Source: Pelotomaculum isophthalicicum JI
Lineage (GTDB): Bacteria; Bacillota; Desulfotomaculia; Desulfotomaculales; Pelotomaculaceae
Assembly (NCBI RefSeq): GCF_029478095.1
Contig: NZ_JAKOAV010000005.1
Location: forward strand, 1-64,000
Reading direction: 5' to 3'
DNA: 64,000 bases
Below are positions 3,415 through 64,000 of this stretch, in pieces. The translations under genes and the position numbers were made by a program. Numbering within the stretch: position 1 is the first letter of the stretch; each line of letters opens with the position of its first letter. The notes under the pieces are model-generated. The model had not been told where the DNA came from. It searched no databases and saw only the letters and a program-made list of their open reading frames with translations.

Positions 3415-3656
3415 CCTGTGAAGGGGTAAAGTAATCAGCTGTATCCTTTTCAGAGAGCCGGTGGTGGCTGTGAACCGGTAAGAGCGGCATGATGAAACAG
3501 GCTCCCTGGAGGAGGTTTGCTGAAAGCAGAAGTAGGCAAACCCGGGTTAGTTCCCGTTATCACAAGCTCGAGTGGGCCGGAGTTATTCCGGCTAATAAGG
3601 GTGGCACCGCGGGAGTAACCTCTCGTCCCTATTTTTTAGGGATGAGGGGTTTTTAA
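3415..3656 (+). promoter_or_regulatory. T-box leader (probably serine-responsive)
   Basis: The Stem I region has the AGAGAG box at 3451 and a GCCGGT/ACCGGT helix. A GGTTTGC/GCAAACC hairpin follows at 3515-3543, then the T-box core AAGGGTGGCACCGCGG at 3597-3612. The intrinsic terminator at 3616-3654 pairs CCTCTCGTCCCT with AGGGATGAGG and ends in a T run. The antiterminator bulge reads TGGC, which pairs with a tRNA ending GCCA. Both tRNA-Ser genes at 8071 and 8198 end GCCA, and the genes controlled make serine. A possible specifier AGC lies at 3483-3485, but I could not fix the specifier loop by eye. Confidence 0.9.
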
Positions 3657-3697
3657 TATTTTAAAGTGTAAATTTAAATGAGAGAGGGGAGACTCAA

Positions 3698-4849
3698 ATG
3701 CAAGACAAAAAATATTTAATGATTCCGGGTCCCACACCTGTACCGCCGACAGTGGTTGCCGCTATGTCGCAACCTCTGATAGGCCACAGGTCAGACGACT
3801 TTGCCAAGTTGCATGAGCAGATTGTAGGTAAATTGAAGAAAGTTTTACAAACGAATAACGACATATTTGTACTTACTAATTCCGGTACCGGCTCACTAGA
3901 GACAGCCATTGCAAATACGGTGAATCCCGGCGATAAAGTATTGGCCTTGATTACCGGGAATTTCGGCGAGCGCTTCGCGAATATCGCCAAAGCATACGGC
4001 GCCAAGGTTGACGAGGTGGATTTTGGCTGGGGCAATGATGTTGATTTAAAGGTCGTTGAGGAAAAACTGGCCGCCGATTCCGGCTATAAAGTTGTACTGG
4101 CGACTCAGAACGAGACTTCTACCGGTGTGAAAAACGATATTGCGGGAATTGCCGCGCTTGTATCTAAAACACCCGCCCTGCTGCTGGTTGATGGTGTCAG
4201 CGGCATTGGCGCTATTGAACATAAGACGGACGAATGGGGTGTCGACATCCTGTGCACGGCCTCTCAGAAAGCGCTTATGTTGCCGCCCGGCCTTTCTGTG
4301 ATCACCGTTAGTGAAAAAGCCTGGCGGGTAGTAAATGACAACCAATCGCCACGGTTTTATTTCAGCCTGCCGGCTGCCAAGAAAGTATATGATAAATGGA
4401 ATACCGCTTACACACCTGGTGTGTCGATGTTTTTGGGGATGGATGCCGCCCTGGACATGATGCTGGCGGAAGGTATGGACAATGTTTACGCGCGCCATGC
4501 TTTGCTGGCCAAGGCTACCCGGGCTGCCGCCAAGGCCTTGGGATTAAAGCTTCTTTCCGAGGACCGTTGCGCGTCTAACGCACTCACAGCCGTTTGGAGC
4601 CCGGAGGGCATCGGCGCTGACGATATTCGCAAAGTACTGAAGAAACAGTATGGGATCACTTTTGCTGGCGGCCAGGGAAAATTGAAAGGAAAGATATTCC
4701 GGATTGCTCATATGGGCTTCTCTGATAAAATGGATATTATGATTGCTATCAGCGCGCTGGAAATGGCACTGGCGCAAGTCGGCTATTCTGTTGAGCTTGG
4801 CACAGGTGTTAAAGCCGCCCAGGAAGTATTTTTGGGAAAGGTGGAATAA
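3698..4849 (+). CDS. Class V aminotransferase (serine/alanine-glyoxylate family), probable serine-pathway transaminase
   Basis: A PLP-dependent fold-type I enzyme of the alanine-glyoxylate / serine-pyruvate aminotransferase group. The N-terminus MIPGPTPVP is typical of the family, and Lys191 in TASQKALMLPPG is the Schiff-base lysine. Length (383 residues) is normal. It sits behind a T-box and only three nucleotides before serA, so it most likely supplies the transamination step of serine synthesis (3-phosphohydroxypyruvate to phosphoserine), replacing a classical SerC. That role is inferred from context; serine-glyoxylate or alanine-glyoxylate transamination is the alternative. The ATG start has a GAGGGGAG ribosome-binding site. 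Confidence 0.88.
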   Translation: MQDKKYLMIPGPTPVPPTVVAAMSQPLIGHRSDDFAKLHEQIVGKLKKVLQTNNDIFVLTNSGTGSLETAIANTVNPGDKVLALITGNFGERFANIAKAYGAKVDEVDFGWGNDVDLKVVEEKLAADSGYKVVLATQNETSTGVKNDIAGIAALVSKTPALLLVDGVSGIGAIEHKTDEWGVDILCTASQKALMLPPGLSVITVSEKAWRVVNDNQSPRFYFSLPAAKKVYDKWNTAYTPGVSMFLGMDAALDMMLAEGMDNVYARHALLAKATRAAAKALGLKLLSEDRCASNALTAVWSPEGIGADDIRKVLKKQYGITFAGGQGKLKGKIFRIAHMGFSDKMDIMIAISALEMALAQVGYSVELGTGVKAAQEVFLGKVE

Positions 4850-4852
4850 ATA

Positions 4853-6436
4853 ATGAAGAAAGTATTGGTAATGGACGGTGTTGCTGAAATTGGTTTGGCG
4901 GCGCTCAGGCGCGAGCCGGATATTGAAGTGGTTATCGGCGAAAAAATGTCCGAGGATGAGTTGTGCAATGTTATCGGTGAGTATGACGCAATGATCGTGC
5001 GGAGTGCCACGAAAGCTACCGCAAGAGTTATTGAACATGCCTCTAAGATGATTATAATAGGGCGCGCGGGTGTCGGTATCGATAATATCGACGTGGCTGC
5101 CGCAACAGCAAAAGGAATATTGGTGGTCAACGCCCCGGACGGCAATACCATTGCCGCAACCGAGCACACCATGGCTATGATGCTGGCGCTCACCCGCAAC
5201 ATCCCGCAGGCCTGGGCAACCCTGCGTGCCGGCAAGTGGGACAAGAAGTCCTTCATGGGTGTTGAGTTCAGGAATAAAGTACTGGGTGTCATCGGGCTGG
5301 GCCGGATCGGGTCGGCTGTGGCGAAGCGCGCTCAGGGCATGGAGATGAAGGTTGTCGCCTACGATCCATATATCAGTGAGGAAAAAGCTGAGAGTCTCGG
5401 AATACAGTTGCTCCCGCTGGAAGAGTTATTTAAACAAGCGGACTTTATTACCAATCACCTGCCTCTAACCAAGGAATCCAAATATATCGTCGGGGAGAAA
5501 GCCTTCAGCCTGATGAAAGACGGGGTACGGTTAGTTAACTGTGCCAGAGGCGGCGTGGTGGATGAGCAAGCGTTATATGCGGCGATGAAGTCGGGCAAAG
5601 TCGCCGGGGCGGCACTGGACGTATTTGAAAAAGAGCCTACCACGGAGAGCCCACTCTTCGAATTAAACAATTTCATTGGTACCCCGCACCTGGGCGCTTC
5701 TACCGAGGAAGCCCAGCTTAACGTGGCCTTTGACGTGGCAGTAGAGATTGTGGCTGCCCTGAAAGGGGACTTCGTTAAGAATGCCGTTAATATTCCATCC
5801 TTGAGTCCGAAAGTTATGGCAGTTGTCAAGCCTTACCTGACACTGGCGGAAAAGCTGGGCAAGTTTGTCGCCCAGTTGGTCGGCGGACGGACTGAAAAGA
5901 TTGAAATCACATACAGCGGGGACTTGGCAAGCCAGGATGTAGCCCCCATTACTACAGCGGTATTAAAAGGTTTCCTGGACACCATCCTGCAGGAGATGGT
6001 CAACTTTGTTAACGCTCCGACCCTGGCCAAAGAGCGCGGCATCAATGTTATCCAGCAGCAGGCCGGTGAAGAGGGCGATTATGCCAATCTGATAACAGTC
6101 AAGGTTATTTCGGACAAAGACGAAATTTCAGTGGCTGGGACTATTTTCGGTGGTACCGACCCGCGGTTCGTGTTTATCGACGGCTACCACGTGGATGCGG
6201 TACCGGAGGGGCATATGCTTTATGTTCCACATACCGACAAGCCGAAGATCATCGGTCCGGTAGCCAACCTGATTGGGGCGCATGACATTAACATATCCGG
6301 TATGCAGGTAGGCCGCAAATCTATTGGCGGCAAAGCGGTAATGCTCTTGAACGTTGATACTCCCGTACCTGAAGAAACCATGGCGGAAATCGCTAAAATC
6401 GATGGGGTGCAGGGTGTGAAAAACGTAAGTTTATAA
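4853..6436 (+). CDS. serA: D-3-phosphoglycerate dehydrogenase
   Basis: Catalyses the first committed step of serine synthesis, NAD-dependent oxidation of 3-phosphoglycerate. The 527-residue product is the long form: catalytic and NAD-binding domains (residues 1-310, Rossmann motif GLGRIGS near 147-153, catalytic Arg232 in NCARGGVVDE, His in GTPHLGAST near 279), an intervening ASB-type domain (about 320-450), and a C-terminal ACT domain (about 455-527) expected to bind serine. The start is three nucleotides after the aminotransferase stop, so the genes are translationally close and share the T-box. A terminator follows at 6472. Confidence 0.96.
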   Translation: MKKVLVMDGVAEIGLAALRREPDIEVVIGEKMSEDELCNVIGEYDAMIVRSATKATARVIEHASKMIIIGRAGVGIDNIDVAAATAKGILVVNAPDGNTIAATEHTMAMMLALTRNIPQAWATLRAGKWDKKSFMGVEFRNKVLGVIGLGRIGSAVAKRAQGMEMKVVAYDPYISEEKAESLGIQLLPLEELFKQADFITNHLPLTKESKYIVGEKAFSLMKDGVRLVNCARGGVVDEQALYAAMKSGKVAGAALDVFEKEPTTESPLFELNNFIGTPHLGASTEEAQLNVAFDVAVEIVAALKGDFVKNAVNIPSLSPKVMAVVKPYLTLAEKLGKFVAQLVGGRTEKIEITYSGDLASQDVAPITTAVLKGFLDTILQEMVNFVNAPTLAKERGINVIQQQAGEEGDYANLITVKVISDKDEISVAGTIFGGTDPRFVFIDGYHVDAVPEGHMLYVPHTDKPKIIGPVANLIGAHDINISGMQVGRKSIGGKAVMLLNVDTPVPEETMAEIAKIDGVQGVKNVSL

Positions 6437-6499: not shown

Positions 6500-6536
6500 T
6501 CATTAAGGAGATTATGCTTTTCGTGATCTATGGATA

Positions 6537-7977
<1,441 letters not shown>

Positions 7978-24205: not shown

Positions 24206-24352
24206 AGTGGCCTTTGGGTATATAACACGGCTCATGTTCGGCCCTTATAATTGTTTGAGCTCTATCGCCCTCGGGTTCGGTCAAACTCGCTCGTTTCTCT
24301 CGCTCTTTTAATTAGGCCTCAAAATCGCCGTTTATATATACCCAAGGTCACT
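24206..24352. repeat. Short MITE-like element between ispD and ispF (147 bp)
   Basis: Its ends form terminal inverted repeats: AGTGGCCTTTGGGTATATAA at the left, and the complement of AGTGACCTTGGGTATATATA at the right. Related partial copies occur at 6537, 36128 and 37474. A further fragment with TTTTGGGTATAC lies at about 24152-24175. There is no coding capacity. It separates ispD from ispF, which are adjacent in most relatives. Confidence 0.75.
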
Positions 24353-36127: not shown

Positions 36128-36179
36128 AATCCTATGGACTTGCATGAGGGGCGATTTTAAGGCCTGATTAAAAGAGAGA
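36128..36179. repeat. Decayed fragment of the short terminal-repeat element
   Basis: GGCGATTTTAAGGCCTGATTAAAAGAG matches the inverse of the right half of the 24206-24352 element with few changes. It lies directly before the L10 leader. Confidence 0.5.
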
Positions 36180-36180
36180 A

Positions 36181-36335
36181 CCCTCGGAATAGCCGAGGGA
36201 ACGTACAACTCAATAATAAGCTGTGGACAGCCGGTGCGTTTGCATAATGGCCCGAAAGCCGCCGGCCGAGGCCTATCTCTTTACTGCGTATAAATTACGA
36301 GGCCTCTGTGTTTTGTCCACAGAGGCCATTTTGGT
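36181..36335 (+). promoter_or_regulatory. Ribosomal protein L10 leader (rplJL autoregulatory RNA)
   Basis: Contains CCCTCGG/CCGAGGG, the CCGAGGCCTATCTC segment typical of Firmicutes L10 leaders, and a final terminator GGCCTCTGTG/CACAGAGGCC at about 36301-36328 followed by ATTTTGG. The L10-L12 complex is expected to bind the leader and cause termination. The T run is poor. About 120 nt separate the terminator from rplJ, partly a repeat. Confidence 0.8.
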
Positions 36336-37463: not shown

Positions 37464-37473
37464 TGGAATCCAA

Positions 37474-37519
37474 CAATTATGAGGCCGAACATGAGCCGTG
37501 TTGTATGTCCAAAGGTCAC
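37474..37519. repeat. Half copy of the short terminal-repeat element
   Basis: The inverse of this stretch (GTGACCTTTGGACATACAAC then ACGGCTCATGTTCGGCC) matches the left half of the 24206-24352 element over about 46 bp with few differences. Confidence 0.7.
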
Positions 37520-62387: not shown

Positions 62388-62735
62388 ATGTCTCAGTCAG
62401 TGCCTAATAGTGGCAATATCGTCTTAAACCGGATATCCGGCAACCGAAACGCTTTACAGGTCGGGTGCTTGGTTAGCTCGACAAAAGGCCGCGATAGAGG
62501 CAGATTCTATCTGGTGATAGGTTGTGAAAATCTATCATCCAGGGTACGCTTGGCAGACGGAGAAGGGCGAAAAGTGGAAAATCCCAAATTTAAAAATATC
62601 AAGCACTTAAATATTTATGAAGTTATTGCCGGAGAAGTATCAAGCAAAGCCGAAAACGGGAAAAGGATAACCAACGCGGACATTCGGAAAGAGCTCAAGA
62701 GTCTTGTAAAAAACTTTGATAAGTGTTCATTTTAG
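62388..62735 (+). CDS. KOW-domain RNA-binding protein (L14e-like)
   Basis: 115 residues. The part from [21 protein letters not shown] is a KOW-type beta-barrel like eukaryotic L14e/L6e, followed by a lysine-rich region ([19 protein letters not shown]). The family is found between map and infA in Clostridia and may bind ribosome or mRNA. ATG at 62388 lies 7 nt behind GAGGAAGG; a frame from 62367 adds seven residues. Confidence 0.85.
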
Positions 62736-62760
62736 GATAAGGAGGTTGGTCAGATACCTA

Positions 62761-62979
62761 ATGTCAAAGCAAGATGTTATCGAGGCTGAAGGTACTGTCA
62801 TTGAACCGTTGCCAAACGCCATGTTCCGTGTGGAACTCCAGAATGGCCATAAAGTGTTGGCGCATGTTTCCGGCAAGATTAGGATGAACTTTATCAGGAT
62901 TTTGGCCGGTGACCGGGTGACAGTAGAACTTTCACCTTATGATTTGAATCGCGGGCGAATTATTTATCGATACAAGTAA
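62761..62979 (+). CDS. infA: Translation initiation factor IF-1
   Basis: 72-residue OB-fold protein: [65 protein letters not shown]-type sequence. The start at 62761 is fixed by family length. The nearest ribosome-binding site GGAGG (62741-62745) is 15 nt away, longer than usual. Confidence 0.96.
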
Positions 62980-62980
62980 A

Positions 62981-63245
<265 letters not shown>

Positions 63246-63268
63246 TACCAGGAGGTGTTTAATAATTT

Positions 63269-63640
63269 ATGGCACGTATCGCAGGCGTTGACTTGCCAAG
63301 AGATAAACGGGTCGAGATTGCCCTTACTTATATTTTTGGCATTGGTAAGCCCACGTCCCAAAAAATCCTTTCTCAGACGAATGTCAACCCTGATACCAGG
63401 GTAAAGAATTTAACTGAGGATGAAATTAACAGGCTGCGTGAAATTATTGAGAAGAATCACAAAGTGGAAGGCGATTTGCGCCGGGAAATTGCTTTAAACA
63501 TCAAGCGCCTGATTGAAATTGGCTGCTACCGTGGATTAAGGCACCGCCGTGGTATGCCGGTACGGGGACAACGGACTAAAACTAATGCCAGGACCCGTAA
63601 AGGACCGCGTAAGACAGTCGGCGTGCGCAGGAAAAAGTAA
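63269..63640 (+). CDS. rpsM: 30S ribosomal protein S13
   Basis: 123 residues: [28 protein letters not shown] start, [30 protein letters not shown] end. ATG start behind AGGAGGTG. Confidence 0.97.
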
Positions 63641-63663
63641 CGTGAGTGTTAAGTTGGCTCAGT

Positions 63664-63804
63664 GTGGCGTGGCGCTTACCTGGAGGGCGGTTTTAGGATT
63701 AAGTTGTTAGCTTGGCCGTCCCCGAAATAGGCGGGGCAGCAGCATAGGTGAGCTTAGACGGTCCGGGGGCGAACGCGTTAGCCTGTAGGTAAGCGCTACG
63801 CCAT
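63664..63804 (+). ncRNA. Structured RNA element in the rpsM-rpsK gap
   Basis: The strand at 63664-63681 pairs with 63787-63804 over 18 consecutive base pairs, two of them G-T. Inside, GGCCGTC (63714-63720) can pair with GACGGTC (about 63757-63763), and CCCCG/CGGGG forms a 5-bp hairpin with an AAATAGG loop. The element ends 62 nt before rpsK. It lies where S4 regulates the alpha operon in other bacteria, but I cannot match it to a described leader. Confidence 0.6.
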
Positions 63805-63866
63805 GCGATCTAGCGGATAATCTGAGCAAACTTGACGCATGTAAATAAATTTAAGGAGGTTATTAG

Positions 63867-64000
63867 ATGGCGCGTCGCGTAACCAGGACGAAAAGACGTG
63901 AACGCAAAAATATAGAATCTGGTGTTGCGCATATCAGATCTACTTTTAATAATACCATAGTAACCATAACTGATACCAAGGGTAATGCGATATCCTGGGC
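63867..64000 (+). CDS. rpsK: 30S ribosomal protein S11 (partial)
   Basis: The first 44 codons are present; the window ends in the gene. [21 protein letters not shown] then [23 protein letters not shown] is typical S11. ATG start behind TTAAGGAGG. rpsD and rpoA are expected next. Confidence 0.96.

Follow-up and report, generated by a model that had tools for sequence, protein, structure and literature searches.

Several bacterial MITEs with effects at the RNA level have been described, and the passages of PMC2229807 that deal with them cover Correia/NEMIS, ERIC, RUP, and YPAL, with RNase III being proposed for NEMIS and RNase E for ERIC repeats. According to this part of the source, they are small, non-coding, dispersed intergenic repeats with terminal inverted repeats and target duplications, their transcripts form long stem-loops, and both empty and filled sites occur. 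The repeat family reported here resembles them in these respects, with target duplications read in two clades other than that of the window and with predicted stem-loop transcripts. Structured elements are also present in alpha operon mRNA, namely Alpha_RBS (RF00140) and the S4 leaders, and the element considered below lies in the same operon. HEARO RNA (RF02033) is mobile, and it resembles this element in being structured, in its length, and in its occurrence in some genomes of the same family.

The window, i.e., the whole stretch of 64,000 nucleotides from Pelotomaculum isophthalicicum JI that was analyzed, contains a structured element between rpsM and rpsK (Table 1). The end of rpsM (63640) and the start of rpsK (63867) bear out the 226-nt spacer reported in an earlier note on this DNA, while the description of other junctions as short is contradicted by the infA-rpmJ spacer (62980-63131), which measures 152 nt. 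The latter carries many short direct repeats of the cagaagt type, and only 77% of its columns are identical between two genomes of the same species, which is a strong difference. In the rpsM-rpsK spacer, the 18 base pairs (two G-T) noticed earlier all form and are part of an even longer closing helix of 21 consecutive pairs. Such a helix had been considered unlikely by chance, and in 300 dinucleotide shuffles the longest helix indeed averaged 10.6 pairs and reached a maximum of 18 in a single shuffle. The spacer folds well as RNA on both the plus strand (-91.6 kcal/mol, z -4.35) and the minus strand (-70.3 kcal/mol, z -5.62), and the DNA fold of the plus strand has a z of -4.60. Scans for promoters and terminators gave nothing exceeding chance, and Rfam 15 E-value scans (positions 62500-64000 as well as sets of 7, 13, and 10 loci) yielded no match overlapping the element.

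Table 1. Copies of the repeat, parts of the rpsM-rpsK (rps) copy, and adjoining genes in the window.
Feature	Coordinates	Strand	Basis or remark
rpsM (S13), upstream gene	63269..63640	+	ORF list; protein in 21/25 family genomes
rpsM-rpsK copy of mobile hairpin repeat, core degenerate	63641..63845	+	insertion relative to 18/21 family genomes and left-arm alignments; right border approximate
Left terminal inverted repeat, rps copy, cgtgagtgttaagttggctcag	63641..63662	+	mirrors right end
Left arm of 21-bp closing stem	63662..63682	+	computed pairing; RNA and DNA folds
Degenerate core, rps copy	63693..63782	+	alignment to sister species G001; no R1 match
Right arm of 21-bp closing stem	63786..63806	+	computed pairing
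Right terminal inverted repeat, rps copy, ctgagcaaacttgacgcatg	63822..63841	+	imperfect complement of left end
rpsK (S11) start, downstream gene	63867..64000	+	ORF list; continues past window end
Repeat copy, second subfamily, stem gacctttgggtatata	24225..24334	-	R1 58.8 bits, E 5.6e-12
Left-half copy, spacer between genes taken to be rplA and rplJ	36131..36202	+	weak R1 match, 22.1 bits; adjoins L10 leader
Right-half copy, spacer between genes taken to be rplL and rpoB	37469..37519	+	88% identity across 51 nt to further copies (blastn)
Left-half copy	6503..6578	+	87% identity across 69 nt to further copies (blastn)

A comparison within the family shows that the element is an insertion. S13 was located in 21 of the 25 genomes. 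Three of these belong to the window's genus and have S13-S11 gaps of 226, 226, and 260 nt, whereas the gap measures 18-33 nt in all of the remaining 18. The element was very probably inserted in an ancestor of this genus, at a place where relatives have about 18 nt.

Sequences related to the rps copy occur elsewhere in the window's genome (G000), in a second genome of the same species (G060), and in the sister species (G001). Between genes read as leuC and leuD in G000, the leftmost 53 nt of the rps copy recur with 85% identity (45/53 positions), and matches of 36/45 and 42/52 were obtained with the copies L190 and L048, respectively. Against all five other copies tested, the left arm outscores the best of 300 shuffles. 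For the right arm, this is clearly the case with just the leu copy and the orthologue of the rps copy itself, the result being marginal against L048 (27 versus 26 for the shuffles) and not beyond shuffles for three other copies, and the middle part matches only the orthologue in G001. The left terminal repeat cgtgagtgttaagttggctcag is related to the ATAAAGTTTGCTCAG ends of other copies. A scan of 25 genomes with a left-arm consensus pattern gave nine matches in G000, six in G060, three in G001, seven in G008, one that is probably due to chance in G020, and none in the other 20; the reversed pattern, used as a control over all 25 genomes, gave none. Both G000 and G060 carry the leuC-leuD copy, and inspection by eye showed the same junction without the element in G001. 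Similarly, no element was seen by eye in the 220 nt upstream of leuD in five further genomes (G008, G009, G011, G007, and G012), of which G012 has a different upstream neighbor, with L325 left unmatched by the script. Empty sites were found at both rpsM-rpsK and leuC-leuD. The repeat is short (approximately 110-260 bp), non-coding, and multicopy, and half copies are frequent. Within the window, the copy at 24225-24334 has a rod core shortened to 110 nt, and an L10_leader match (RF00557, 36203-36342) starts where a left-half copy stops. Several contigs end no more than about 80 bases from a copy (e.g., L217, L218, L286, and L361), so assemblies seem to break at the repeats and copy numbers may be underestimates.

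Target duplications are readable in other clades. Families f16 and f7 provided 22 copies for examination, of which eight show exact 6/6 duplications (TATTTA, TACCTA, TAGCTA, TAAATA, TAGTTA, TAATGA, TAGATA, and TATTTA, i.e., seven TANNTA and one TAATGA), three match at 5/6 positions, and 11 have none; five of these 11 are units in or near the L266 tandem array. The duplications directly adjoin inverted ends that conform to G(A/T)TTCCxCTGAAAAA. Terminal inverted repeats were found (14 of 14 in L278), and a 137-bp derivative without the rod apex has TAAATA on both flanks. In the window genus's own subfamily, the rps copy included, no target duplication was readable. An exact-pattern scan of eight genomes for a transposase sharing the terminal repeats revealed short copies and single ends, together with a few pairs that were widely spaced or faced outwards, and no inward pair 0.8-3 kb apart. 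A 19.9-kb inward pair is present in G053:C18, and a 4.6-kb inward pair at L340, considered as an autonomous partner, was judged to be due to chance; it surrounds genes that we take to be unrelated. At the same locus (3597-5267), a 556-aa protein, presumably a large serine recombinase, adjoins an apparently interrupted gene read as comEC, downstream of a presumed comEA. Searches of phage, plasmid, and IMG/VR sequences with one DNA query and one exact pattern returned no match. Taken together, the rpsM-rpsK spacer very probably contains a copy of a MITE-like mobile repeat that is dispersed and non-autonomous, in agreement with the mobile palindromic element that the earlier note had offered as one of its two readings, given the absence from near relatives and the copies elsewhere in the genome. 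Since no transposase was found in the scan, we infer the mobilizing enzyme, presumably a DDE-type transposase that would recognize the terminal repeats and work in trans.

The repeat belongs to a much wider family. When a full-length copy (L058) was used as a DNA query against 113 genomes of the order, 22 were matched, but the match is confined to the gene flanking L058 in G019, G046, and G080 and to a coding stretch in G010. For alignment, 22 seed elements were hand-picked for recognizable outer stems, all from L105-L134 except L048, with the exclusion of partial copies and flanking-gene or coding matches (L116, L117, L118, L121, L123, L126, and L128), duplicates (L105 and L112), and the additional tandem units in L122 and L134. 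They align across about 178 nt and adopt one rod-shaped fold, in which an outer stem is followed by short helices separated by seven tandem 5'-GA-3'/5'-GA-3' motifs; the full-length relatives have in common a core of about 146 nt that includes these motifs. The sequence of the outer stem and ends is wholly different between clades, whereas the inner rod persists in many families and shows compensatory changes. At the seven sites, GA/GA occurs in 12, 10, 20, 20, 19, 13, and 20 of the seeds, and the sixth motif has five GC/GC replacements. Canonical pairing in the seeds reaches 82.3%, compared with 71.5±0.9% after shuffling and 24-50% after sliding; because the seeds were hand-picked for outer stems, their conservation and outer-stem pairing are upper estimates. 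Changes on both sides are found at 24 of 42 pairs. Of the 31 pairs enclosed by the outer stem, RNAalifold recovered 18. For one helix, the register that it prefers (columns 61-65 with 147-150) has zero double changes, and the register used instead (57-60 with 147-150) includes a pair that is GC in 12 sequences and AU in 9.

A covariance model (R1) was built from the rod core. With a threshold of E 1e-3, it matched 34 of the 113 genomes of the order, and with E 1e-4 it matched 28 of 398 genomes of the phylum, both samples including the window's genome, in which there are 13 matches; the maximum number of copies per genome is at least 28. For 110 aligned copies, the covariation score is 0.260 versus 0.107±0.004 in shuffled alignments, although the alignment was fitted to the model and leans towards it. 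In these copies, G.A or A.G makes up 84-94% of the motif columns at four sites and 47-81% at the sixth and the two outermost sites, and the pairs beside them swap A-U for G-C or C-G for G-C. The G.A motifs belong to one strand, because the complement would carry TC/TC. In the outer flanks, an uninterrupted run of at least eight pairs between the 30-nt flanks was detected in 79 of 110 copies, compared with 157 of 2200 letter-shuffled flank pairs. The covariation indicates that the rod fold is under selection. At L266 (5635-6466, in G068:C45), four rod elements with common outer stems are arranged head-to-tail at 228-229-bp spacing, and a fifth is located 3.8 kb upstream. Tandem pairs of c-di-GMP-I riboswitches lie near rod elements in L111 (2386-2641) and L112 (2386-2646).

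With regard to orientation, 151 copies found with R1 were counted, excluding the rps and leu copies and with genes defined by a simple ORF rule. Seventy-four of them lie between co-directional genes, 55 in sense and 19 in antisense (p 3.4e-5, with copies treated as independent), and a separate count with a different ORF rule and copy set gave 54:15 among 110 copies. The sense:antisense ratio is 25:3 in f14, 10:3 in f16, 5:0 in f31, 3:1 in f18, 2:0 in f7, and 1:0 in g8, but the bias is not general, as it is 5:5 in the window's genus, 4:4 in genus g7, and reversed (0:3) in f39. RNA-level selection in some clades is possible, in counts that combine the directions of transcription and replication.

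The rps copy itself is not matched by R1, because its core has decayed, so it is assigned to the family by its arms and ends. When G000 is compared with G001, the core shows 14 substitutions at 90 aligned sites together with 19 gap columns, while only one of 42 sites in the 21-bp helix has changed, versus 32 of the 128 fourfold sites in the two flanking genes, rpsM and rpsK (Fisher 6e-4). Arms defined by the fold have changed at 4 of 90 sites with one gap column (Fisher 3e-5 versus fourfold sites), and the central part at 13 of 75 with 19 gap columns. Narrower arm borders, drawn after the alignment had been seen, give 2/96 (p 4e-7), and preset wider arm segments give 7/127 with 17 gap columns. 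Within the species, G060 differs from G000 at one of the 226 spacer sites. As judged from this comparison of two species, in which the stem changed little while the core decayed, the chances appear evenly balanced that the stem has been retained as an mRNA element. In the genus ancestor, the repeat would have been inserted between rpsM and rpsK, after which the core would have decayed and the closing stem been kept. By analogy with the proposals for NEMIS and ERIC in the relevant part of PMC2229807, the retained stem would most likely serve as an RNase III entry point or as an exonuclease barrier, and it would uncouple the mRNA levels of rpsM from those of rpsK-rpsD-rpoA.

A different origin was also put forward in the earlier note, namely an undescribed leader of rpsK-rpsD-rpoA. 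A cis-regulatory element of this type, evolved for that purpose and bound by S4 or another ribosomal protein, would agree with the location within the alpha operon, with the slow stem between the two species, and with the S4 leaders listed elsewhere before rpsM or rpsD, including in Clostridia, in part of PMC7247131. However, conservation at the same place in relatives, which is expected of a ribosomal protein leader, failed to appear: the long spacer is confined to one genus (3 of 21 family genomes), copies of the repeat also occur at leuC-leuD and at further loci unrelated to it, and the sole Rfam match in 62500-64000, with E values up to 5 allowed, is an Alpha_RBS at the start of rpsM that falls short of the gathering score (18.6 versus 38 bits). 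An S4-type leader was therefore rejected and an ancestral conserved regulator is very unlikely, and binding of S4 to the hairpin is not indicated. Nevertheless, the leader and mobile readings are compatible, since the slow rps stem leaves room for a secondary role in the operon. Descent from HEARO, as a remnant of an IscB-IsrB omega RNA, was suggested by the fact that several left ends follow ATGA or GTGA and by CATGAGTGTTAAG, CGTGAGTGTTAAG, and ATATGACTATAAAG at left ends. Except for a hypothetical divergent class, this identity was rejected and has a negligible probability, because neither RF02033 nor RRXRR was found in G000, G060, G001, and G008, although the same RF02033 search matches three of eight genomes (one over the cut-off) and RRXRR is found in two of eight, and because the HEARO alignments of relatives show a different sequence and fold.

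Chance, or recombination with the other copies, could also explain the slow stem, in which case the rps copy would be the same mobile repeat, now decayed and functionless; we give this explanation a little less than an even chance. It would account for the decayed core and accords with the frequent half copies, the balanced orientation in the window's genus, and a rod core that G001 carries at another orthologous place (L204) and G000 lacks there (L197). On the other hand, the low rates of change in the helix and the fold-defined arms relative to fourfold sites argue against it, and gene conversion by the nearest other copy in the genome is unlikely, as that copy is only 85% identical over the left arm.

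In a broader, tentative reading that we regard as possible but doubtful, the repeats form an undescribed class of mobile structured RNA element that extends across much of the phylum; no published description of the family was found in the open-licence literature. The rod would be selected as RNA, sense-oriented in some clades (25:3 in one), and possibly protein-binding or nuclease-evading, letting copies live inside operons, and one copy would have been domesticated in this genus as an alpha-operon processing hairpin. The rps copy is of interest as an insertion into an essential operon whose stem, rather than its core, seems to have been kept.

As regards the known systems, Alpha_RBS and the S4 leaders precede rpsM or rpsD in the portions of PMC10931766 and PMC7247131 that describe them, whereas the insertion reported here lies between rpsM and rpsK and is limited to one genus. 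HEARO RNA differs from the repeat family in sequence, fold, and associated gene. Descriptions of bacterial MITE-like repeats are usually limited to a single genus and based on the ends, while the rod family makes it possible to test whether the RNA or single-strand fold of a mobile repeat is itself selected. Unlike Correia/NEMIS, ERIC, RUP, and YPAL, it extends beyond one genus, has 6-bp, mostly TANNTA duplications (in two clades), and carries across many families a rod core with seven tandem G.A motifs that belong to a single strand.
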